The notes under the pieces are model-generated. The model saw only the letters and a program-made list of their open reading frames with translations, did no database searches and was not told the DNA's origin. From Nitrospirota bacterium (lineage in GTDB: Bacteria; Nitrospirota; JACRHJ01), in NCBI GenBank assembly GCA_021784575.1, contig JAJYHX010000004.1, forward strand, positions 1-64,000: a DNA stretch of 64,000 nucleotides, in the 5' to 3' direction. The position numbers were made by a program, and so were the translations under genes. Shown piece by piece: positions 47,365 to 59,248 of the stretch (position 1 is the first letter of the stretch; each line of letters starts with the position of its first letter).

Positions 47365-47724
47365 TCACTCCGTGACGGGCAACAGAACAAGCTCATCCCC
47401 CGGCCGGGCCGAACGGTCTTCGGTCGTCCCCGCCGCGACCTCGATCACGCCTGCGGCCCGCGGATGCCATGCGGATATGCGGAGGGGCTTCATGTTCCTC
47501 GTAATGGCGATTATCCTTCCCCGCCTGTCAAAGAATATGACGTCTATCGGAAAACGCATCCCCACCGTATGGACCGAACTGCACGGCATTATGACAAGGC
47601 CCTCGCCTTCATTCAACCTTTCCCTGCCCAGGAGGCCCTTCATCCTCGGGAAGGCCTTACGCGCGACTTCCGCATACGCCAGGACGGCATTGTTTGACCT
47701 GTTTATTATCCTGACCTTTTCCAA
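47365..47724 (-). CDS. DUF192 protein
   Basis: 119 residues of the DUF192 family: RMKGLLGRERLNEGEGLVIM, then HTVGMRFPIDVIFFDRRGRII and the closing AAGVIEVAAGTTED. The function of the family is not known. Many DUF192 proteins are exported, but this one has no signal peptide. It lies 16 bp downstream of tadC and one base before the Ig-like protein gene. DUF192 genes are often found next to Tad loci. Confidence 0.88.
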   Translation of the reverse strand: MEKVRIINRSNNAVLAYAEVARKAFPRMKGLLGRERLNEGEGLVIMPCSSVHTVGMRFPIDVIFFDRRGRIIAITRNMKPLRISAWHPRAAGVIEVAAGTTEDRSARPGDELVLLPVTE

Positions 47725-47740: not shown

Positions 47741-48676
47741 TCATTTGACCACGTGTCCGAATATCGCGCTGTATATCCTTATCCCCGCCGGGCCGAGCAA
47801 CACAACGAACATGGCCGGGAATATGCACGTCGCCAGAGGAAATATCAGCTTGATGGACGTCTTGGCGGCGGCCTCCTCGGCCATCTGGCGTCTCCTGGTC
47901 CTTAGGGAGTCCGAATGGACCCTGAGCGCCCTCGACAGGCTCGCCCCGAGCTTGTCCGTCTGGATGAGAAGCGCCGCCAGGGACCTTATGTCCTCGACGC
48001 CGGTCCTCTCGCCCATGTCCCTGAGCGCTTCCGCCCGAGGCTTGCCGGCCCTTGTCTCCTGGCTTACAATCAGGAACTCCGATGCCAGGACATTCTTGGA
48101 GAACAGCTTGTCCTGGACTATCCTTATAATCGCGGCGTCCAGCCCCAGGCCCGCTTCCACGCAGACGGTCATGAGGTCCAGCACGTCCGGGAGCGAATGG
48201 AATATCGCCGTCTTCCTGTTCTTAAGCTTGTGCCTTAAAAAAACATTGGGGACCAGAAGGCCGACTATGAAACCGGCTATCCCTCCAAGCAAGGCCAACT
48301 TCATGCCGGTCACAGGGTAAAGCCCCAGGGTAACGACGGCGAACAGGCCCACGCTCAATATTATCTTGATACCGCCGAATACCGCGACCGCGCCGGGGGA
48401 GCGGTACCCGGCCTGCACAAGCATCCGCCCGTAATAGGTTTTGGCGCGGGGTGACATAGGCATTACGGCGCTTATCTCTCCCACCTTCTGCGACCAGCCC
48501 GATTCGGTCTCTTTTGAGAGGATCTCGGGACGCTCGGGCGCATCGGCGGATTTCAGCTCCCGCAGCCGTTCGCCGATGTCGGTCTTACGTAAAGCAAGCG
48601 TCCTCAGTATTAAAAATGCGGCGAAACCGATTGCAATAAACACCGAAACGGATACCAGATAAATGCTGACAGGCAT
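47741..48676 (-). CDS. tadC: Tad pilus platform protein TadC (type II secretion F domain)
   Basis: 311 residues with an N-terminal helix, a cytoplasmic four-helix T2SSF domain (LDLMTVCVEAGLGLDAAIIRI, KADALRDMGERTGVEDIRSL-like segment) and C-terminal helices (KLIFPLATCIFPAMFVVLLGPA). With TadB it forms the inner-membrane platform moved by the CpaF/TadA ATPase. It is 9 bp downstream of tadB. Confidence 0.93.
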   Translation of the reverse strand: MPVSIYLVSVSVFIAIGFAAFLILRTLALRKTDIGERLRELKSADAPERPEILSKETESGWSQKVGEISAVMPMSPRAKTYYGRMLVQAGYRSPGAVAVFGGIKIILSVGLFAVVTLGLYPVTGMKLALLGGIAGFIVGLLVPNVFLRHKLKNRKTAIFHSLPDVLDLMTVCVEAGLGLDAAIIRIVQDKLFSKNVLASEFLIVSQETRAGKPRAEALRDMGERTGVEDIRSLAALLIQTDKLGASLSRALRVHSDSLRTRRRQMAEEAAAKTSIKLIFPLATCIFPAMFVVLLGPAGIRIYSAIFGHVVK

Positions 48677-48685
48677 TGCCGCCTC

Positions 48686-49657
48686 CTATACCTTTATGGC
48701 TATTATCCGTTTAATGATGAAAAAGCCTATCACCTGCAACGACAGCGCGGCTATTGCCATATAAAGACCCGTGTGCGTCTTTACAAGCGGCCTCAGATAA
48801 GCGGGGTTTATAAACATAAGCGCAAGGACGAGGAAAACGGGCAGGGCGGCAAGGATGTATCCCGACATCCTGCCCTGGGCGGTATATACCCTGAGCTGCC
48901 GGTATACCTTCAGGCGCTCCCTTATGGTAACGCCCAGCTTCTCCAGCAGCTCCGCCAGGTTTCCGCCCGCATCCTTCTGTATGTTCACCGAGGTCACGAA
49001 GAATTCCAGGTCCATGCTCGGCATCTGGGTTGTCATGTTGTCGAGCGCATCCGACAGAGGGAGCCCGAAGTTCTGCTCGTCGTATGCCGTCTTGAATAGC
49101 TTCGCAACCGGCTCGGGAGATTCCTGGGAGACTATCTGCATCGCGCTCACAAACGAATGCCCGGCCCTGAGAGACAAGGCCATCATATCCAGCGTATCCG
49201 GAAACAGCTCCGTGAATTTTCTGAGGCGCTTCTGCACCATGTTAAGCAGGAAGACATACGGTATGAACGCCAGCACAAGCCCTATCATAACACCGACGAG
49301 TAACCCCCGGTGGATAATCACGCATCCCAGAACCCCGACACAAAAAAGCAGGGCCGTTAGCAGAACCAGCGTCCCCACGCTGAGTTTCGTATCCGAATGA
49401 CTTATCAGTTTCTGCATCCTGCGCGCCGGACTGAACCGGTAAAGCATTTTGTTTAAAAAAGGCACTTCGCTTAAGATCTGGGACTTCAATATCAATGACG
49501 TGTCCCGGGCGGCGGCATCTCCCTTCGCTATCGACTGAAGCCTGCGCCGCACCTCGCTTTTGACAGATCCCCTGGTTAACGCGATTCCATAGTATATGCC
49601 CAGAATTGCGAGGAACGTCGCCGCAAAGACGACTGTCATTATAATGAGGATGTGCAT
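48686..49657 (-). CDS. tadB: Tad pilus platform protein TadB (type II secretion F domain)
   Basis: 323 residues: two N-terminal helices, then the T2SSF domain (PDTLDMMALSLRAGHSFVSAM; GGNLAELLEKLGVTIRERLKV) and two C-terminal helices. It pairs with TadC. It is separated by only 3 bp from the cpaF stop upstream, so translation is probably linked. Confidence 0.93.
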   Translation of the reverse strand: MHILIIMTVVFAATFLAILGIYYGIALTRGSVKSEVRRRLQSIAKGDAAARDTSLILKSQILSEVPFLNKMLYRFSPARRMQKLISHSDTKLSVGTLVLLTALLFCVGVLGCVIIHRGLLVGVMIGLVLAFIPYVFLLNMVQKRLRKFTELFPDTLDMMALSLRAGHSFVSAMQIVSQESPEPVAKLFKTAYDEQNFGLPLSDALDNMTTQMPSMDLEFFVTSVNIQKDAGGNLAELLEKLGVTIRERLKVYRQLRVYTAQGRMSGYILAALPVFLVLALMFINPAYLRPLVKTHTGLYMAIAALSLQVIGFFIIKRIIAIKV

Positions 49658-49660
49658 AGC

Positions 49661-51031
49661 TTACGCCCTCCTTGTTTCCTCAAATATATTTACGGGAAGG
49701 TCTATCCCGGCAAGGCGGAGTTTCTCGGCGAATCTGGGCCGCACCCCGGTTGCCTTGTACTCGCCTATTACATCTCCGTCCTGGTTTATGCCTTTCTTTT
49801 CAAACAGGAAGATGTCCTGCATCACTACAACGTTGCCCTCCATGCCGGTGACCTCGGAAACCTTTATTATCTTTCTCGTGCCGTCCGAAAGGCGGGCCAG
49901 CTGCACGATGATGTTAATGGCCGAGGCTATCTGTTCCTTTATGGCCCTGTCCGGGAGGTCCATGCCGGCCATCATTACCATTGTCTCAAGCCTGGAGAGG
50001 GCATCCCTCGTGGAATTGGCGTGGATGGTCGAGACGGAGCCGTCGTGCCCGGTGTTCATGGCCTGCAACATGTCCAGGGATTCGCCGCCTCTCACCTCGC
50101 CCAATATTATTCTGTCGGGCCGCATCCGGAGCGCGTTCCTGACAAGGTCCCTCTGCGTTATCTGGCCTGCGCCTTCGATATTCGGCGGGCGTGTCTCCAG
50201 GCGCACAACATGTTCCTGCTTGAGCTGCAACTCAGCCGAATCCTCGATCGTCACTATGCGCTCGTCACCGGGCACGTACTCAGAAATAATGTTTAACAGG
50301 GTGGTTTTGCCGCTCCCCGTCCCGCCTGAGATGAGCATGTTCAGACGGGCCTTTACCGCGCCCTTCAGAACCTCGGCCATGCTTTCGGTCAGCGAGCCGT
50401 TGGCCAGGATATTTTTCATCCTGAGCGGGTCCGCGCCGAACCGTCTTATCGAGAGCGCCGGGCCGTCTATCGCAAGCGGCGGTATAATCGCGTTTACACG
50501 TGAGCCGTCCGGGAGGCGCGCATCCACCATAGGACAGGACTCGTCTATCCTTCTGCCCACCTTCGAGACTATGCGGTCGATTATCTGCATGAGGTGCGCG
50601 TCGTCCCGGAAGGCGACGTCCACCTTGTGCAGCCTTCCGGATTTCTCCACGTATATGTTCCGCGAGTTGTTTACAAGTATATCCGATATGTCCGGGTCGG
50701 TCATCAGGGGCTCCAGGGGGCCGAGGCCGAACGTCTCGTGCTGGATGTCTACAATCAGGCGCTCCCTTTCTATCTGGTTCAGCGGGACGTTTTCACCGCT
50801 TATCATGTCCGTGAGGATGAGCGCTATCTCGTTTCTAAGCTGGCTTTTTTCTATGTTTTCGAGGTTGCCGAGGTCAAGCTTTTCTATAAGCCGCCTGTGT
50901 ATCCTGGACTTGAGCTCCTGATAGTGGTCTTTCCGGCTTTCGATTTCCACGTCGGGCAGGGTCGTTTTCGGCGGGTCCTGCTTCTTCGCATCGCCCGGCT
51001 TTAAATTCAACAATCTCTCTTTTAAGCTCAT
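49661..51031 (-). CDS. cpaF: Tad pilus assembly ATPase CpaF/TadA
   Basis: 456 residues of the type II/IV secretion ATPase superfamily. Walker [20 protein letters not shown], Asp box [13 protein letters not shown], Walker [17 protein letters not shown], and a His box ([15 protein letters not shown]). A disordered N-terminal stretch and a helical domain precede the core. It powers Flp pilus assembly from the cytoplasm. The start overlaps the cpaE stop by 4 bp. Confidence 0.95.
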
Positions 51032-52176
51032 TTCGGCCTCCCGGCAAAATAATGCTCCACTTTGGCCGCGAAATCTCTGTATGATTTGCTGATCTCAGAG
51101 TTTGGGAACAGGACCGGCAGCGGCTGCCCTCTGTTAATGGATGTTATTACGGAGTTGAAATCGTTGGGTATGTCCCAGAAACAATCGTAACCGAGTGTCT
51201 TTTCAGCGTCTTTTATGCTTATGTCTCCTCTTTTCAGATACCTGTTGACAACAAGCTTCACCTTGCCTCCCATGTCGAGCCTGCTGAACACGGTGAGCGA
51301 TTTCTGGAGGCTCTTGATTGAGGGCAGGCTCATGACCCCGACTGCGACTATCAAATCGGACACGTCGAAGGCCGCGAGGTTCATTTCGTTGAACGAGCCT
51401 GCGGAGTCCACGACTACATAGCTGAACATCTTCTTCAGGAGGTTTATCACGGCCCTTGCGTCGTTGGGAGTTACGCTTATCGCTTCCTCGATTGTTTTCG
51501 GCTCTCCGAGCAGATAAATCCCCGATGCGTGTTTTGCGAGGACTCCCCTCAGGAAGACGGCGTCGAGCCTGGAGATGTTGGCCGTAACGTCCGAAATCGT
51601 ATATTTCGGTTTCAGGTTCAGGAATATGCCCGCGTCCCCGCCTTCGAGGTCGAGGTCTACCAGGACCACCTGCTTGTTGGTTGCCAGGTGAAGGCTTACG
51701 GCAAGGTTGGTGGCTATGGAGGTATTCCCGGTTCCTCCCTTTGGAGAGAAACAGAGTATGGCCTTGCCGTGCGCGTTTGCTTCGCCGCCGGAGGGAGACG
51801 AGGCGAGCGACCCGATTTTCTTTAACGAATTGAAAATATCCCTCGGCTTTATCGGCCTCGGCAGAAAATCGCTCGCGCCGGAGCGCATGGCCCTAAGGAT
51901 TATATCGGATGAGCTGTCCCGGGAAATGGCGAATATGGACAGCCCGGGGACCGCCTCCAGCATTTTCTCCATTACCTGAAATGCCTGCGGCAGGTCAATA
52001 TCCAGGTCTATCAGCACAAGCGTCGGTTTCAGCTTGAGGATGCCTTCATACCCGGAAGAGTAGTTTTTCGCCGTTCCGGCCACCGTCATGCCAGCAAACT
52101 GGCTCAATATCTCCGTCGTCGCGCTTCTCGAATCCTCGTCTCCGTCTATGATAAATGCTGTTACGCGTTCGGTCAT
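51028..52176 (-). CDS. cpaE: Tad pilus assembly protein CpaE/TadZ
   Basis: 382 residues: an N-terminal receiver-like domain (about 5-125; [12 protein letters not shown] and the PRPIKPRDI loop) and a ParA/MinD-like ATPase domain from about 138. The deviant Walker A reads KGGTGNTS: the signature first Lys is kept, but the P-loop Lys is Asn. Such changes are known among CpaE/TadZ proteins. The family places the pilus machinery at a cell pole. 20 bp after the TadG-like gene. Confidence 0.92.
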
Positions 52177-52196: not shown

Positions 52197-53732
52197 TTAA
52201 TGATTGACAAGTCCATATTTGAGGTTCGGGTCCACAAGCACTACCGCGCCCTCGGCATCGACATCATTCACAAGCTGCTGAAGTTTCTGGGTAAAACTGC
52301 AATCCGGCGCGGGGTCGCTTTGCGGCGGCTGCAGGATATATTCGTCGTCCGCCCCCAGCTGCGGCGGCAGCGGCACGGCGTGCCCGTATGCCGTCCCTCC
52401 GCCCTTGCCGTTAGGCCCTCCGGGGTCGAGCGTCGAGGGGTCTCCGTTAAAGGGGCTGTCCGAGTAGCCGTCTATCTGGATTATGCCGTAACCGACCACC
52501 GTTACCGCGTCCGCCACGCTGTTGCCTGGAGTATGCGTGCCGTCATAGACCATCACTATCAGCTTCGAGCCTTTCGGATACTGCTGCCAGAACCTTATTC
52601 CGTTCAGGCTGTCGGTCGCCAAATAGAATTTCTTGTTGAGCGGGTTCGAGCCGCTGCTGTCGAAATAGGGAATAGTGGCGTACGGGCACTGGGACGGGTC
52701 GTTTCCGTTGGAAGTGTTATAGTTGTCGTCTGGATAATAGTTTGGAGAATACCTGATTATCTCTCTCACGGCGTTCGGCGGAATGACGTTGGACGGTATG
52801 CCGTTGAACAGATAGCTGAAGTTGAGGTCGTATTTAGTCGGGTTGACGGTGCCGGAGTTCGCCGATGGTATCTGTGAGAAGTTGCTGGGGCATGAGGGAC
52901 TGCATGTGCCCGTGTTGGCATTCTGCTGGACCTCATACCACGTTCCGTTACCATTGTGATAATCCGTCCTGAGCAGGACGTCGACGTAACCGTTCATATT
53001 GAACGAACTCTTATTGACGTTAGCCGCGGCGCCTATTATGGCGAAGGTCTTTCCTCCAAGCCCCGGAGTGAGATTGTCCGCATTCAGAGACCTCATGAAA
53101 CTATCCGGGTATACCTGGTTATACGGCGACCCGGGGGTAGGGCTAGAACCTTCGTTCCAGTACTCGTTGACCGCTATGGGCACAACGTTGACATTGTGTA
53201 TCCTCGCGGCAATTGCCACCGAGGATATTCCCGTATTGAATAGCGAGAATACGCGCGAGAACCAGTTCTCGACCAGAGGCTGCGCGGGTATTGTCCCCTG
53301 GCGCCGGGCGTATACCTCGACTGCGTTGATGGGCGCAGTCCCGCCGGTGACGGCGGGCGTGAAGACGCCTTTGGCCCAGTTCCCGACGATTATATCCGCA
53401 TCGGGCTGAAGCGCCACCGGTATCGGCCCCCCAACGGGCGCTCCGGGAGACGGCCCGTATGCCGGCACGTCTGAATAGGCCACGTCCGCAAAGTTCAGGG
53501 CCGCGATCCTCTGCGCCGCGTCCCTGGCGTAGGTCTGGGTGGTGTCGGTCGTGCCGTCGAGGTTCTCCGCCCCGGCGAGGGCGGCGGCGTCCGCCGCCAC
53601 CTGAAGCTGGTTCTTCACCTGATACAGGTGCCCGATGTCTATGGCCATGGCGGCCATCCCCATTAGCACTACCAGAGACAGCGCCAGCAATACCAGCGAG
53701 AACCCTTTTTCGTTTTTAACCGCTTTAAACAT
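52197..53732 (-). CDS. TadG-like pilus-associated protein
   Basis: 511 residues. The N-terminus KNEKGFSLVLLALSLVVLMG, then AIDIGHLYQVKNQLQVAADAAALAGA is the TadE/TadG-like signature: a prepilin-like single helix with a large periplasmic part. The remaining about 400 residues are Asn/Pro/Gly/Tyr-rich and not recognised. TadG-type proteins are minor components of Tad systems, often with a von Willebrand domain; none is evident here. It lies between the secretin and cpaE. Confidence 0.85.
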   Translation of the reverse strand: MFKAVKNEKGFSLVLLALSLVVLMGMAAMAIDIGHLYQVKNQLQVAADAAALAGAENLDGTTDTTQTYARDAAQRIAALNFADVAYSDVPAYGPSPGAPVGGPIPVALQPDADIIVGNWAKGVFTPAVTGGTAPINAVEVYARRQGTIPAQPLVENWFSRVFSLFNTGISSVAIAARIHNVNVVPIAVNEYWNEGSSPTPGSPYNQVYPDSFMRSLNADNLTPGLGGKTFAIIGAAANVNKSSFNMNGYVDVLLRTDYHNGNGTWYEVQQNANTGTCSPSCPSNFSQIPSANSGTVNPTKYDLNFSYLFNGIPSNVIPPNAVREIIRYSPNYYPDDNYNTSNGNDPSQCPYATIPYFDSSGSNPLNKKFYLATDSLNGIRFWQQYPKGSKLIVMVYDGTHTPGNSVADAVTVVGYGIIQIDGYSDSPFNGDPSTLDPGGPNGKGGGTAYGHAVPLPPQLGADDEYILQPPQSDPAPDCSFTQKLQQLVNDVDAEGAVVLVDPNLKYGLVNH

Positions 53733-53759: not shown

Positions 53760-55244
53760 TTATTTAAGCTTCTCCGGGTCGAGAGACCTGTGCGTAGGCA
53801 TAAGAGGTATCCATCTCAGGTCCTCTTTCTGCTGCTTGTTCGGCTCGTTCGCTCCGGGGAACTTAACCTTCTTGCCCGGGGCCATCGGCTGCATGAGCTT
53901 CGGCGTTATGAAGAACAGGAGCTCCTGGTCTTTTTTGTTCATGGTCTGATACCTGAAAAACGCGCCTATAATCGGGAGGTCTCCAAGCACCGGTAGCTTG
54001 GCCAGCTCCTTGCTCCAGGTATTGTTTATAAGGCCCGCTATTACGAACGACTGGCCGTCCTTCAGGTCAACCGCCGTCGAGACCCTGTTGGTAGAGAATA
54101 CCGGCATGGAAAAGCCGTTGATTGACGCCTCGTTGCTGGATATGCTGCTGACCTCCGCCGGGTCTATATTAAGCCTGATAAGCCCGGTTTCCGTAACTAT
54201 CGGATTGAAATTGAGCCGCACGCCGAACTTCTTGTAATAGACGCTGACAGTCGGGGTGCCGCCGGCGTTAGCGGAGGTTACCACCGGCACAGGCACCTCG
54301 CCGCCGGCCAGGAATGTGCCCCTCGCTCCGCTCCTCACTATGAGGTTCGGCTCGGCGAGTATCTTGGCCAGCCCCTTGGAGGCAAGCGCCTGAAGCAGGT
54401 ACTGGACTCCGTTATGCCAGTCCACCACGCCGAACGTGGCGCCGTTGATGTTATTGGTGGTAAGCCCGCCGCTCTGCATCCCCTGAAGGAGCGGCCCTAT
54501 AGTGGAGAGGCCGCCGGTAACCGGCGAGACGGCGGAATCCAGCGTCAGGTATTTGCCGGCATACGACCAGTTGATGCCGAGCTTGGACGACGCGTCCCTG
54601 TCTATGGAGGCGACCGTTATCTGGAGCATGACCTGCGGCGAGCCTTTCACTTCGAGGAGCATCACGAACTGAAAGCCGTTGCCCTGGCCGGCGCCGACGG
54701 GACGGACCTCTTTTACCACGCCTCCCTGGAGGACGTACAGCTCCTTCTCCGTAATGTCCCTGCCGAAACCGAGCAGGAGGTTCCGCACCTTCTGGAGCCT
54801 GTAATCCGTCGATACGGCGCCGGTAACCACCAGGGTATTGCTGTTTATCATCTTGAACTGGATGTCGTCGCCCGGGGCGATCTTTTTTACCTGCGACTTA
54901 AGCCCTGACAGGTCCACCCTGACATTCACGTCGAAGAACGTCTGGCTGCCGTTTTTCTCCCAGACTATGAGCGTTGTATCCCCGATTTTCTTGCCGTTTA
55001 TCTGGATGTCCTTCGGGTCCACAACGACGACATCCGCCACGGCCGGATCGGCAATGGAGACCGTTTTTACGGCCACCGGGATGGTAATGACGGTGGCCTT
55101 ACCGACGATTACATTAATGGGTACGGCCTTGGCGGCTTCCGCGAGACCCGCCGGAAACATAATGGATATGCCAACTGCAAGCGCAAGGACAATCGACGGC
55201 ATGTGCCCGGCCCTTAGCCTAAACAGTCTGTGTGCTTTGTTCAT
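53760..55244 (-). CDS. cpaC: Tad pilus secretin CpaC/RcpA
   Basis: 494 residues: signal peptide (about 1-37, ending GLAEAAKA), an N-terminal pilus-assembly domain (INVIVGKATVITIPVAVKTVS), a BON-like domain (about 140-180) and a C-terminal secretin domain (ANAGGTPTVSVYYKKFGVRLNFNP; TETGLIRLNIDPAEVSSI). It forms the outer-membrane pore for the Flp pilus. 31 bp after cpaB. Confidence 0.93.
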   Translation of the reverse strand: MNKAHRLFRLRAGHMPSIVLALAVGISIMFPAGLAEAAKAVPINVIVGKATVITIPVAVKTVSIADPAVADVVVVDPKDIQINGKKIGDTTLIVWEKNGSQTFFDVNVRVDLSGLKSQVKKIAPGDDIQFKMINSNTLVVTGAVSTDYRLQKVRNLLLGFGRDITEKELYVLQGGVVKEVRPVGAGQGNGFQFVMLLEVKGSPQVMLQITVASIDRDASSKLGINWSYAGKYLTLDSAVSPVTGGLSTIGPLLQGMQSGGLTTNNINGATFGVVDWHNGVQYLLQALASKGLAKILAEPNLIVRSGARGTFLAGGEVPVPVVTSANAGGTPTVSVYYKKFGVRLNFNPIVTETGLIRLNIDPAEVSSISSNEASINGFSMPVFSTNRVSTAVDLKDGQSFVIAGLINNTWSKELAKLPVLGDLPIIGAFFRYQTMNKKDQELLFFITPKLMQPMAPGKKVKFPGANEPNKQQKEDLRWIPLMPTHRSLDPEKLK

Positions 55245-55274: not shown

Positions 55275-56135
55275 CTATTTGAAAGTCTGACTGCTTATTG
55301 CGCTGCCCCTTATCACCCTTATGGAACTCATGCTCGCCTTCCTTGCGCGGGGTTTCCTTCTTATTACGCGGGCAATCCTCCGGACAGGCCTTGCGGGCGC
55401 GCTACCGAGGAGCGAATATACTGTTGCGCCGGTGGTTTTGACCTTCTGGGTGTCTCCCTCATGTTTCAGGACAAGCTGAATCCTGTTCTCGCTCGCGAGC
55501 GCGAGTTTCTCCGCCTGTTCCGGCTTTACATCCAGCGTTACCGTCGGCACCGTTACAGGCTTGCCTTCCTTCTGCTCAAGTATCTGGCCGACGGCAAGCA
55601 CCTTTATGTTCTGGAGTATTATCTTGCTTATCCTCGTATTGATGCCCGCGCCCGCGGGCTGATAGGGAGAGTTGACGGTGGCGATGACATCGACAACCGC
55701 GTTCGGGAGAATAAAACCAGCCACCCCCGCCACGTCGTTTACCGCCAGCGTAATCGCCCTGTCCCCGGGCGGTATGATAAAGCTCATCACCCCGGTGTCG
55801 GATTTGACGGGCGCGAGAGAGGATTCGAGCACCGGAGTCCCGGCGGGTATGTCGGTAACCGCGAACCTGCCCGTCGCCAGCCTGGCGTCCACGAACCCGC
55901 CCTTCGGCACGCTGCTTGCGGGCCAGGAGGCGGTTTTAAGCATGGGTGCCTGTATAATCGTGCCGAAGGGTATGTCCGACGCCGCGACGACCACCTGCCG
56001 GACCTGCGTCTTCGCCTGCATGACCTCGCGGTTCTTTGCGCTTAAATAACTGAAGACCATATACGCCGCCACGGATGCCAGCGCCAGCGCGGCAACGACA
56101 ACCGTCACGGTTCTCAATCTCGTAGGTGTGGCCAT
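55275..56135 (-). CDS. cpaB: Tad pilus assembly protein CpaB/RcpC
   Basis: 286 residues: one N-terminal membrane helix (about 9-29), then an SAF domain (VVVAASDIPFGTIIQAPMLK) and the RcpC/CpaB domain (FIIPPGDRAITLAVNDVAGVAGFILPNAVVDVIAT). The C-terminal tail is unusually basic (RPVRRIARVIRRKPRARKAS). It is thought to stabilise the secretin pore in the periplasm. Located between the TadE-like genes and the secretin gene. Confidence 0.93.
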   Translation of the reverse strand: MATPTRLRTVTVVVAALALASVAAYMVFSYLSAKNREVMQAKTQVRQVVVAASDIPFGTIIQAPMLKTASWPASSVPKGGFVDARLATGRFAVTDIPAGTPVLESSLAPVKSDTGVMSFIIPPGDRAITLAVNDVAGVAGFILPNAVVDVIATVNSPYQPAGAGINTRISKIILQNIKVLAVGQILEQKEGKPVTVPTVTLDVKPEQAEKLALASENRIQLVLKHEGDTQKVKTTGATVYSLLGSAPARPVRRIARVIRRKPRARKASMSSIRVIRGSAISSQTFK

Positions 56136-56174: not shown

Positions 56175-56654
56175 CTACTGTTGCGGACCCTGATACATCA
56201 TGGCAGCCCGCCTTACTATGGGCACAGTCCCGTCCAGAACCGGTATTATCTCACCGCTTAAGGCACGGAAATCATACGTTACTATAACGCTTATTGTATC
56301 GCCAGACGATATGTTATCGAAGGTCTTTGCCTGGCCGGACCGGCCCGTGGCGGAGAGATTTACGAAGACGTCTCCGCCCGGAACGGCGCCAATCTGCGCG
56401 GTTATCTGGCCGAAGGTGTAGTTTGTGACGTTGGATGTGAAGGTCTGGGCGTTTGGTTGTTTTGGTTGTTCGGATGCGAAACGCGCGCCTGCGCGCGCGC
56501 CGTTTGTCATGATATTGCCGCAATGCCAGGCCCGCGCAAACTCCGTTATCGCCAGGAGAAGCGTGACAAGGAGAAGCGCCACCAGCGCAAATTCAACAAG
56601 GGCCTGTCCCTTGACGCATCGCAGGCTGTTTTTGGCATCCGTAAGACTTATCAT
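56175..56654 (-). CDS. TadE-like pseudopilin
   Basis: 159 residues. The prepilin-like motif KGQALVEFALVALLLVTLLL has a Gly followed by a Glu at position +5, as in substrates of the Tad prepilin peptidase. One helix is followed by a periplasmic domain with NGARAGARFAS, typical of TadE. It lies 40 bp before cpaB and beside a second TadE-like gene. Confidence 0.88.
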   Translation of the reverse strand: MISLTDAKNSLRCVKGQALVEFALVALLLVTLLLAITEFARAWHCGNIMTNGARAGARFASEQPKQPNAQTFTSNVTNYTFGQITAQIGAVPGGDVFVNLSATGRSGQAKTFDNISSGDTISVIVTYDFRALSGEIIPVLDGTVPIVRRAAMMYQGPQQ

Positions 56655-56687
56655 CGAATATAACCCTTAAGTTAATCCGTATACGCG

Positions 56688-57155
56688 CTACTCGACGAGG
56701 ATGGACGCGGATCTCGTCATGGGCACAGTGCCGCTGAAATAAGACTTTTGATTACAAGATGTTACGATGCCTGGAATAACCTCAAAATCATATACCACCG
56801 AAACTCTCAGCGTGTCGCCGTGAGTCGCGTCGCTTACCAGTTTCTGAGCATTTGTGTTCTTGTCGAACACCTGGACGCTTGGGGTGCCCTGTATCCCGTC
56901 CGGCGGGATTACGGCGCCAATCTCGCTCCTGAGATATGTTTCTATCAGCGTTTGCGAGGTGGATGAATTGCCCAGCACCGCGCCGTACCGGGCGGCGGCC
57001 CGGACGGAATTATCGAGATTATTGGAATAAAACCAAGCTCTTCCAAATTCTATGATGCCGAAAAAAAGCGCCAGGAAAAGGGTTATTACGATGGCTGCTT
57101 CCACCATCGCCTGCCCCTTGCGGTTTTTTATGACGGTATTGCCCCCGGGCTTCAT
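56688..57155 (-). CDS. TadE-like pseudopilin
   Basis: 155 residues. The motif RKGQAMVEAAIVITLFLALF is a prepilin-type leader and helix with Glu at +5, then IIEFGRAWFYSNNLDNSVRAAARYGA, the TadE signature. It resembles the next gene along its length (for example RVSVVYDFEVIPG versus SVIVTYDFRALSG), so the two look like a duplicated pair. 93 bp after the Flp pilin gene. Confidence 0.88.
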   Translation of the reverse strand: MKPGGNTVIKNRKGQAMVEAAIVITLFLALFFGIIEFGRAWFYSNNLDNSVRAAARYGAVLGNSSTSQTLIETYLRSEIGAVIPPDGIQGTPSVQVFDKNTNAQKLVSDATHGDTLRVSVVYDFEVIPGIVTSCNQKSYFSGTVPMTRSASILVE

Positions 57156-57247
57156 GGCTGCCTCCTTTCGTCAAGGCCAAAATACTGCACCTTGCAGTCT
57201 GGCCCCGCCGGACATTGCATCCGGCGGGGCAGTTCGGTTTTGCGGTC

Positions 57248-57454: not shown

Positions 57455-57566
57455 TTTCATCCTCCGTTTCGTTAATTAACGCCCGTTCCCTCATGCTGCT
57501 CTTAACTGCAACCCTGCCCCCGTTCGCCTCCTTTCATTAAAAGTATTAAATTTTTTTTGGAGCTTA

Positions 57567-57595
57567 AATATAACAACTTCTTAGTATCTTGTCAA
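57567..57595 (-). promoter_or_regulatory. Strong sigma-70-like promoter for the Tad operon
   Basis: Minus strand TTGACA (57595-57590), a 17-nt spacer and TATATT (57572-57567): consensus -35, near-consensus -10, about 110 bp upstream of the flp start. Confidence 0.7.
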
Positions 57596-57791
57596 TATTA
57601 ATAATCTAAATAGTTGGATAATCACTTATGTTAATTATTTTCTTCTTTAGTATTGATTCGTTCTTTAAAAGAAATGTAACGAAACTCCCCGGTTTTGTCA
57701 AAAACCTTTAATGTATTACAGGAAGTTATGCGCTCTCAAGCCGATTAGCGCCGAAATATTAAAAAAAAATAAAATAGACAATCATAATTTG

Positions 57792-57820
57792 TTGTAAAAA
57801 AATTGCTCGTCTGTTATACA
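57792..57820 (+). promoter_or_regulatory. Sigma-70-like promoter for the 57842 ATPase
   Basis: TTGTAA (57792-57797), a 17-nt spacer and TATACA (57815-57820). It is followed by GGGGAGGTGAGAA, a strong ribosome-binding site, and the ATG at 57842. Confidence 0.5.
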
Positions 57821-57841
57821 TAGATGCAGGGGAGGTGAGAA

Positions 57842-59248
57842 ATGGGGCAGTCGCTTGGTGAAATGCTTACAAGTGCCGGAGTAATAACGGATACGGAGTT
57901 AGAAACGGCTCTCGAACGACAGAAATTATACGGAGGGCGCCTTGGCGCGAACCTGATATCCATGGGATTCATCACCAGGGAAACCCTCGACACCTTTCTT
58001 CACCACAAGCCCAAAAGACCGGCCACACTCGAAGACACCGGCCTGCCATCCGCATTTATTTCCGAGCTTGCGCTCAAGATTGCATCCTCGCTCGGGACGT
58101 TCACAATCGGCGAGGTTTCCAAAAGGATAAAGCTGCCTTCGAATATAGTTGACACAACCATACAGTCCCTCAGGCAGGACAAACTCTGCGAAGTGAAGGG
58201 CGGAGCTGGTTTTGCTCCAATAACCTATACGTTTTCCATCACGTCGGCGGGAAGGCAGCGCGCCGCCGAGCTTATCGAAAACAACCGTTATGTCGGTCCC
58301 GCACCGGTGTCGCTGGATGACTATACCAAGGCATTCGATTATCAGACGGCCAGGAACATGTTCATCCCGGAGGAAAGGCTGCGGGAGGTATTCTCTCCTT
58401 TCATATTGGACGACAGGATCTTCGAGCAATTCGGGCCGGCAGTCAATTCGGGCAAATCGATATTCATTTACGGCCCGGCCGGCAACGGCAAAACGGCCCT
58501 GGCGGAGGCCATAGGCTCGTTGATGGGCGATGAAATTTATATCCCGTACTCAATCTCGGTTGAACGGGAGATAATAAACGTCTTCGACCCGATTAACCAC
58601 AGGGAATTGCGGTCTGACGGCGAAAACAACCTGTCGTCCGACGAGAGGTGGGTCCGCTGCCGCAGGCCGATTGTGCTTGTCGGAGGAGAGCTGACCCTGA
58701 ACATGCTCGACCTGGAATACAACCCGGCCTATAAATTCTACGAGGCGCCGCTTCAGCTTAAGGCGAACGGCGGAGTATTCATAATAGACGATTTCGGAAG
58801 ACAGCTTGTCAGTCCGAAGCATCTCCTTAACCGGTGGATCGTGCCGCTCGAACGCAGAACGGATTTCCTGACGCTTCATACCGGCAAGAAGTTCGAGATA
58901 CCCTTTGAACAGCTCGTGGTTTTTTCTACCAACATCGAGCCGCATGAGCTTGTGGACGAGGCTTTTTTAAGACGCATCCGCTACAAGGTCAAGATGGATC
59001 ATCCCACGAAGAAGGATTTCGCGGATATATTCCGACTGGTATGCGAGAGAAACTCCATCGAATTCAAACCCGACGTCCTCGATTACCTGCTGAAAGAGTA
59101 TTACGAAAAAAAGGACGTAAAATTAAACTCCTGCCATCCCAGAGACCTGATAGACCAGATAATAGACATGGCGCATTTCCGCAATGAAAAACCGGCCCTT
59201 ACGAAAGATGCCATAGACAAGGCGTGGAACAATTATTTCGTGTGCTGA
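57842..59248 (+). CDS. MshEN-like domain plus AAA+ ATPase of unknown function
   Basis: 468 residues. The N-terminal about 55 residues (SLGEMLTSAGVITDTELETA, then GGRLGANLISMGFI) resemble the MshEN/GspE-N domain found on pilus and secretion ATPases, some of which bind cyclic-di-GMP. Then a winged-helix-like part (about 65-145) and an AAA+ core with Walker A GPAGNGKT (211-218), Walker B VFIIDD (312-317), a sensor-1-like STNIEP and an arginine-rich EAFLRRIRYKV. It is not a secretion ATPase of the CpaF kind; it looks like an MoxR/Cdc48-type remodeller. It is divergent from the Tad operon across a shared control region, suggesting a role in pilus assembly or control (inference). Confidence 0.75.
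   Translation: MGQSLGEMLTSAGVITDTELETALERQKLYGGRLGANLISMGFITRETLDTFLHHKPKRPATLEDTGLPSAFISELALKIASSLGTFTIGEVSKRIKLPSNIVDTTIQSLRQDKLCEVKGGAGFAPITYTFSITSAGRQRAAELIENNRYVGPAPVSLDDYTKAFDYQTARNMFIPEERLREVFSPFILDDRIFEQFGPAVNSGKSIFIYGPAGNGKTALAEAIGSLMGDEIYIPYSISVEREIINVFDPINHRELRSDGENNLSSDERWVRCRRPIVLVGGELTLNMLDLEYNPAYKFYEAPLQLKANGGVFIIDDFGRQLVSPKHLLNRWIVPLERRTDFLTLHTGKKFEIPFEQLVVFSTNIEPHELVDEAFLRRIRYKVKMDHPTKKDFADIFRLVCERNSIEFKPDVLDYLLKEYYEKKDVKLNSCHPRDLIDQIIDMAHFRNEKPALTKDAIDKAWNNYFVC

Follow-up and report, generated by a model that had tools for sequence, protein, structure and literature searches.

The AAA+ ATPase gene and the divergent Tad operon

The window, a 64,000-nucleotide stretch of a Nitrospirota contig (JAJYHX010000004.1, positions 1 to 64,000), contains a 468-codon open reading frame with an ATG start that occupies exactly positions 57842-59248 of the forward strand, with GGGGAGGTGAG directly upstream. 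An initial annotation had described its product as an N-terminal domain of the pilus ATPase type fused to a winged helix and an AAA+ core, and both the reading frame and this architecture were confirmed by profile matches, an AlphaFold model and conserved motifs (Table 1). The opposite strand carries a complete Tad/Flp operon in the order flp, tadE, tadE, cpaB, cpaC, tadG, cpaE, cpaF, tadB, tadC and a DUF192 gene. Because the operon has its own cpaF, the AAA+ gene does not replace CpaF (TadA), an ATPase of the same pilus system that belongs to a different P-loop family.

The flp gene and the AAA+ gene are separated by 381 bp and not by the 390 bp first given for a shared control region. This region contains six promoter-like sites, against 1.3 in shuffled sequences (positions 57461-57841). 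The promoter scan returned a strong sigma-70-like candidate on the flp side (11 of 12 consensus matches, with a TG), but just two weak candidates on the side of the AAA+ gene (9 of 12 matches each), so the proposal that sigma-70-like promoters face both ways is half supported. A strong GC-rich hairpin of 11 pairs lies between flp and tadE (window positions 57202-57230) and might attenuate the expression of tad relative to that of the pilin. At the other end of the operon, a DUF192-like gene recurs 3' of tadC in several Nitrospirota tad loci (window positions 47365-47724; L040:11826-12185; L066:16612-16953; L067:6849-7190), with the Pfam match checked for the window copy only.

Table 1. Positions of the AAA+ ATPase gene, its domains and the neighbouring Tad genes in the window.
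Feature	Position	Strand	Basis
tadB and tadC platform genes	47741..49657	-	homologues found with tadB/tadC queries
cpaF/tadA motor ATPase	49661..51031	-	PF00437
cpaE/tadZ	51028..52176	-	Response_reg and ParA-like
tadG-like	52197..53732	-	PF13400, PF09977
cpaC/rcpA secretin	53760..55244	-	PF00263, PF13629
cpaB/rcpC	55275..56135	-	PF16976
Two tadE-like pseudopilin genes	56175..57155	-	PF07811
flp major pilin, 70 aa	57248..57460	-	congeners have Flp-type pilins at this place
Divergent region, 381 bp, between flp and the AAA+ gene	57461..57841	.	head-to-head in 4/4 congeners carrying the AAA+ gene
Sigma-70-like promoter candidate for flp/tad, TTGACA-17-TATATT	57567..57595	-	promoter scan
Tad-associated AAA+ ATPase gene, 468 aa	57842..59248	+	25-member family alignment
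MshEN-like domain, residues 4-56; motif I Arg = Ser4, motif II Gln = Lys56	57851..58009	+	NF053729 E 8e-17, residue comparison, four-helix model
MarR-like winged helix, residues ~61-150, common to the family	58022..58291	+	model pLDDT ~90, Foldseek to MarR proteins, MarR_2 match in one member
AAA+ core, residues ~171-467	58352..59242	+	conserved Walker A, Walker B (DD), sensor 1 Asn, RR pair; AAA+ fold by Foldseek
Walker A, GPAGNGKT (211-218)	58472..58495	+	conserved motif
Walker B, VFIIDD (312-317), then family signature FGRQ	58775..58792	+	family alignment

A conserved family of winged-helix AAA+ proteins

Comparison with homologues indicates that the real unit is the winged helix plus the AAA+ core, and not the MshEN fusion. 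The AAA+ query matched 22 of 396 Nitrospirota genomes, including one (G197) with a relic that contains stop codons, and 75 records of the plasmid collection (approximately 36-43% identity among the matches listed). The plasmid relatives come from Rhizobium, Sinorhizobium, Ensifer, Burkholderia, Paraburkholderia, Photobacterium, Salipiger and Pseudorhodobacter, and their matches mostly begin near residue 57, i.e., past MshEN. Beyond Nitrospirota, the family occurs in Alpha-, Beta- and Gammaproteobacteria, for which its prevalence is known from plasmids only. No phage record matched, and a search of genome contigs with the protein yielded a near copy as the sole true relative, along with two short P-loop matches from Ruminococcus.

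In an alignment of 25 members, the nucleotide motifs are conserved, comprising Walker A, an hhhhDD Walker B, a sensor 1 Asn and an RR pair (GPAGNGKT, VFIIDDFGRQ, FSTN and the RR pair in the window protein). The window protein also has the two family signatures seen in this alignment, a GGELT motif and a Walker B that reads DDxGRQ. ATP hydrolysis is only predicted, since an Asp stands at the position of the catalytic Glu of Walker B. A DD pair in Walker B is also found in active AAA+ proteins such as DnaA.

The initial description was of a MoxR/Cdc48-type AAA+ core, but no MoxR or Cdc48 profile scored above its cut-off. The same holds for all Pfam and NCBIfam AAA models searched with the core of the window protein (bpMoxR, 17 bits against a cut-off of 27; AAA, 16.3 against 21.2; CDC48, 15.3 against 802), and the match to the IteA/IetA model was weak (28.6 bits against 510). 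Sequence profiles lean to IteA and CdvC. The full-length AlphaFold model resolved the MshEN domain and the winged helix, with the AAA+ part modelled poorly; a model of the core on its own was little better (pLDDT 68) and predicts a hairpin before the sensor 1 strand. Its structural matches are AAA+ proteins including Lon, MCM, BchI and PspF, with TM-scores of at most 0.45 among the matches listed. The window protein resembles MoxR, Cdc48, CdvC, IteA/IetA, Lon, MCM and BchI in its P-loop core and predicted hairpin, but differs from MoxR, Cdc48 and related proteins in these low scores, and its AAA+ clade is unsettled because the core model is mediocre. The best match of the core model was an entry titled as uncharacterised, Q8U0N8 of Pyrococcus furiosus (8p49; E 1.5e-8, TM 0.39). 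An archaeal origin of Tad has been proposed, to which this model-based match is possibly relevant.

Members of the family are associated with Tad pili

A search for this architecture and its neighbours in other genomes had been suggested with the initial annotation. We carried out this search and found that the homologues are associated with Tad genes, with one clear exception. In all nine plasmid-collection loci that were read, cpaB, cpaC, cpaF, tadB and tadC adjoin the family gene, which is located after tadC in Rhizobium, Sinorhizobium and Pseudorhodobacter and just before cpaB in Burkholderia, Paraburkholderia and Photobacterium. In the genus of the window, the gene is head-to-head with flp in all four carriers (spacing of approximately 381, 398, 269 and 262 bp). 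Outside this genus, the MshEN-bearing homologues on long contigs all lie 4-6 kb 3' of tadC on the same strand (4/4), an arrangement recorded for families f21 and f23. The stretches read around the AAA+ gene of family f18, up to approximately 10 kb on each side, contained no Tad gene, but rcpC is present elsewhere in the genome in 12 of 13 carriers.

Among the 396 Nitrospirota genomes, cpaB/rcpC was detected in 20 of the 22 carriers of the AAA+ gene versus 30 of 374 non-carriers (Fisher p = 4e-18), and at the level of genera it co-occurs in 11 of 13 (p = 8e-10); both tests ignore phylogeny and count genomes or genera as independent. The clear exception is G124, where the AAA+ gene (G124:C82, L070) is intact and encodes a long N-terminal part of a different kind, and where the genome has no TadE or RcpC match. 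The relic in G197 is a broken AAA+ gene with in-frame stops (G197:C33:274618-275107, L082) in a genome that also lacks TadE and RcpC matches, as expected if the AAA+ gene decays after Tad loss. Conversely, a profile search, which had no positive control of its own, found no copy of the gene in 19 Tad-bearing genomes. The gene is thus an accessory of some Tad systems, on which Tad pili do not generally depend.

An association with Tad pili is supported by these comparisons of gene content and order. In two phyla the relatives are placed inside or next to tad clusters, or else are unlinked but occur together with Tad, and the link to a pilus is stronger than the sequence alone had shown. At the family f18 loci L069 and L077, the recurrent neighbours are ABC-transporter-type permeases and a possibly nuclease-like protein with ITAQDLYN(F/Y)TKC near its start.

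In a transcriptome paper, a tad operon of Vibrio parahaemolyticus includes VP2426, listed only as a 'Predicted ATPase with chaperone activity', between the prepilin peptidase genes and rcpC (PMC7859628). This is the position of the homologues in Burkholderia and Paraburkholderia, and in Photobacterium the gene is likewise just before cpaB. VP2426 is a probable Vibrio counterpart, judging from synteny and annotation; the Photobacterium relative differs from the window protein in having no MshEN. We found no study of the function of this ATPase in the open literature, and term searches of papers on the tad clusters of Sinorhizobium, Bradyrhizobium, Aeromonas, Vibrio vulnificus and Aliivibrio turned up no such AAA ATPase. 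The initial view that this combination could not be assigned to a characterised system holds as far as function goes, but a similar ATPase in a Tad operon had already caught the attention of annotators. The new elements are the family as defined here, its linkage to Tad in two phyla, its fusion to MshEN and the decay of the ligand site.

The winged helix is probably not a classic DNA reader

In the AlphaFold model, residues 70-147 form a winged helix (HHHEEH, pLDDT ~85-90) that Foldseek pairs with MarR proteins (best E 0.003, probability 1.00). This MarR-like fold, and the head-to-head placement in all four congeners carrying the gene, would suit a protein that regulates transcription of the divergent flp/tad operon, binding DNA through the winged helix and using ATP as a switch. 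We consider this reading rather unlikely. The putative recognition helix has a charge of zero or below in 22 of the 25 members (-1 in the window protein), which argues against a classic DNA reader, and the gene is co-directional in or beside the tad cluster, or unlinked to it, in other taxa, so the divergent arrangement is specific to the genus of the window.

The MshEN domain lacks two ligand-contacting residues

Residues 5-55 match NF053729, an NCBIfam model of an MshE-related c-di-GMP domain (E 8e-17, 60.8 bits, cut-off 38), and the N-terminus also matches the solved N-domain structures of PilF and MshE by sequence. The AlphaFold model has four helices in residues 2-53 (pLDDT ~85-90). In its 53-residue double motif, spacing and four-helix bundle, the domain is like the MshEN (GSPII) domains of MshE, PilB and PilF, but it lacks the motif I Arg and the motif II Gln and is fused to a winged helix and AAA+ core, not to a secretion-type ATPase. 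MshEN was found in families f1, f13, f21 and f23 (six Nitrospirota genera) and is absent from all other homologues. In a tree of the shared core, its distribution is compatible with one gain followed by later loss, with weak support for the deep branches.

The initial annotation proposed that this domain binds c-di-GMP and that the AAA+ ring then gates or remodels Flp pilus assembly. Several observations are in line with such a gate: the NCBIfam c-di-GMP model matches all seven MshEN members scanned, the 24+5+24 motif spacing is exact, most hydrophobic positions are as expected, and the motif I Gln and motif II Arg are kept. The genome also carries five GGDEF domains and so probably makes c-di-GMP. 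However, missing nucleotide-binding residues had been named beforehand as evidence against the proposal, and two are replaced in all eight MshEN homologues. The guanine-stacking Arg of motif I (position 1) is S, S, K, L, L, T, F or L (Ser4 in the window protein), and the phosphate/ribose-binding Gln of motif II (position 24) is K, K, M, I, H, K, H or H (Lys56 in the window protein). In MshE, the Arg stacks on guanine and the Gln bonds ribose and phosphate, and Arg9 and Gln32 matter (PMC5013675). In PilF GSPII-A, a Ser in place of Arg and a missing Gln go with lost c-di-GMP binding; Gln residues had to be restored to recover binding, which was abolished when Ser was put back at an Arg position (PMC12002112).

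We compared these residues with 29 other MshEN proteins of the phylum. The motif I Gln is kept in all 29, the motif II Gln and Arg in 23 each, and the motif I Arg in 16, which indicates that the motif I Arg by itself is often lost (13/29), whereas loss of the motif II Gln is a minority state. The genome of the window also encodes an MshEN protein with an intact motif pair (G000:C5:303674-303868, RLG..Q twice). Moreover, the domain appears to have been deleted in frame in a congener, where the first dozen residues are joined to the linker (L039:15038-16312, G002; MGMKFGEKNIR-ALPPPP, compared with MGIKFGERLIRAG...MNAMPPPP in G003), although an assembly error may account for this even with the gene inside an 81-kb contig. 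Given this deletion and its absence from other homologues, MshEN cannot be the core of the system. The domain probably has little or no affinity for c-di-GMP, and c-di-GMP control of the ATPase is doubtful; the replacement of both residues in all eight homologues weakens the proposed gate, which we regard as unlikely. The domain nonetheless appears to be under purifying selection despite its lost ligand residues, with a dN/dS of 0.12 against G001 (0.06 for AAA+) that rests on only six nonsynonymous differences.

A candidate third ATPase of Tad pili

Tad pili function in attachment, biofilm formation, surface sensing and predation. A single bifunctional motor, CpaF, is thought to power their extension as well as their retraction. 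The conservation and genomic context described above point to a real but under-described Tad accessory ATPase. Our preferred reading, which we hold with moderate confidence, is that it is an AAA+ remodelling ATPase dedicated to Tad, and the third nucleotide-driven component, beside CpaF and the ParA-like CpaE, in a subset of Tad systems. The protein would form a ring and use ATP to remodel a Tad component, with the CpaF/TadB/TadC motor and platform or pilin handling as candidates; the remodelling function is suggested by membership of the AAA+ class. The winged helix may be a partner-binding rather than a DNA-binding module, and MshEN, an acquisition of a single Nitrospirota branch, probably serves to dock the ATPase on a partner. 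More tentatively, and somewhat less probable in our judgement, many Tad machines may have such a third ATPase in the form of a winged-helix AAA+ ring, which would act on the motor or platform to remodel it. One Nitrospirota branch would then have captured an MshEN domain that lost its ligand site through decay and is now used for docking.

It is very improbable that the protein is another kind of AAA+ ATPase, such as an IetA-type defence ATPase or a general chaperone, that lies near Tad genes by chance, because the tad neighbourhood recurs in two phyla, the co-occurrence holds when the genes are unlinked and no protease partner is annotated beside the gene in annotated neighbourhoods, despite the weak matches to IteA/IetA and CdvC and the presence of the gene in G124 without detectable Tad. 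The defence ATPase in particular was rejected on its IteA/IetA score, far below the cut-off, and on the Tad context.

If the dedicated Tad ATPase is real, it would be a candidate for switching, resetting or dismantling the machine in a subset of Tad systems, and a third ATPase absent from current lists of Tad components. The MshEN domain also warns against taking a score above the cut-off of a 'c-di-GMP-binding' profile as evidence that the ligand is bound. A second group of MshEN proteins, which are not PilB-type, is also without the motif II Gln (G000:C5:5342-5497 at L003, and L014, L020 and L034), and its 'c-di-GMP-binding' label deserves a check.
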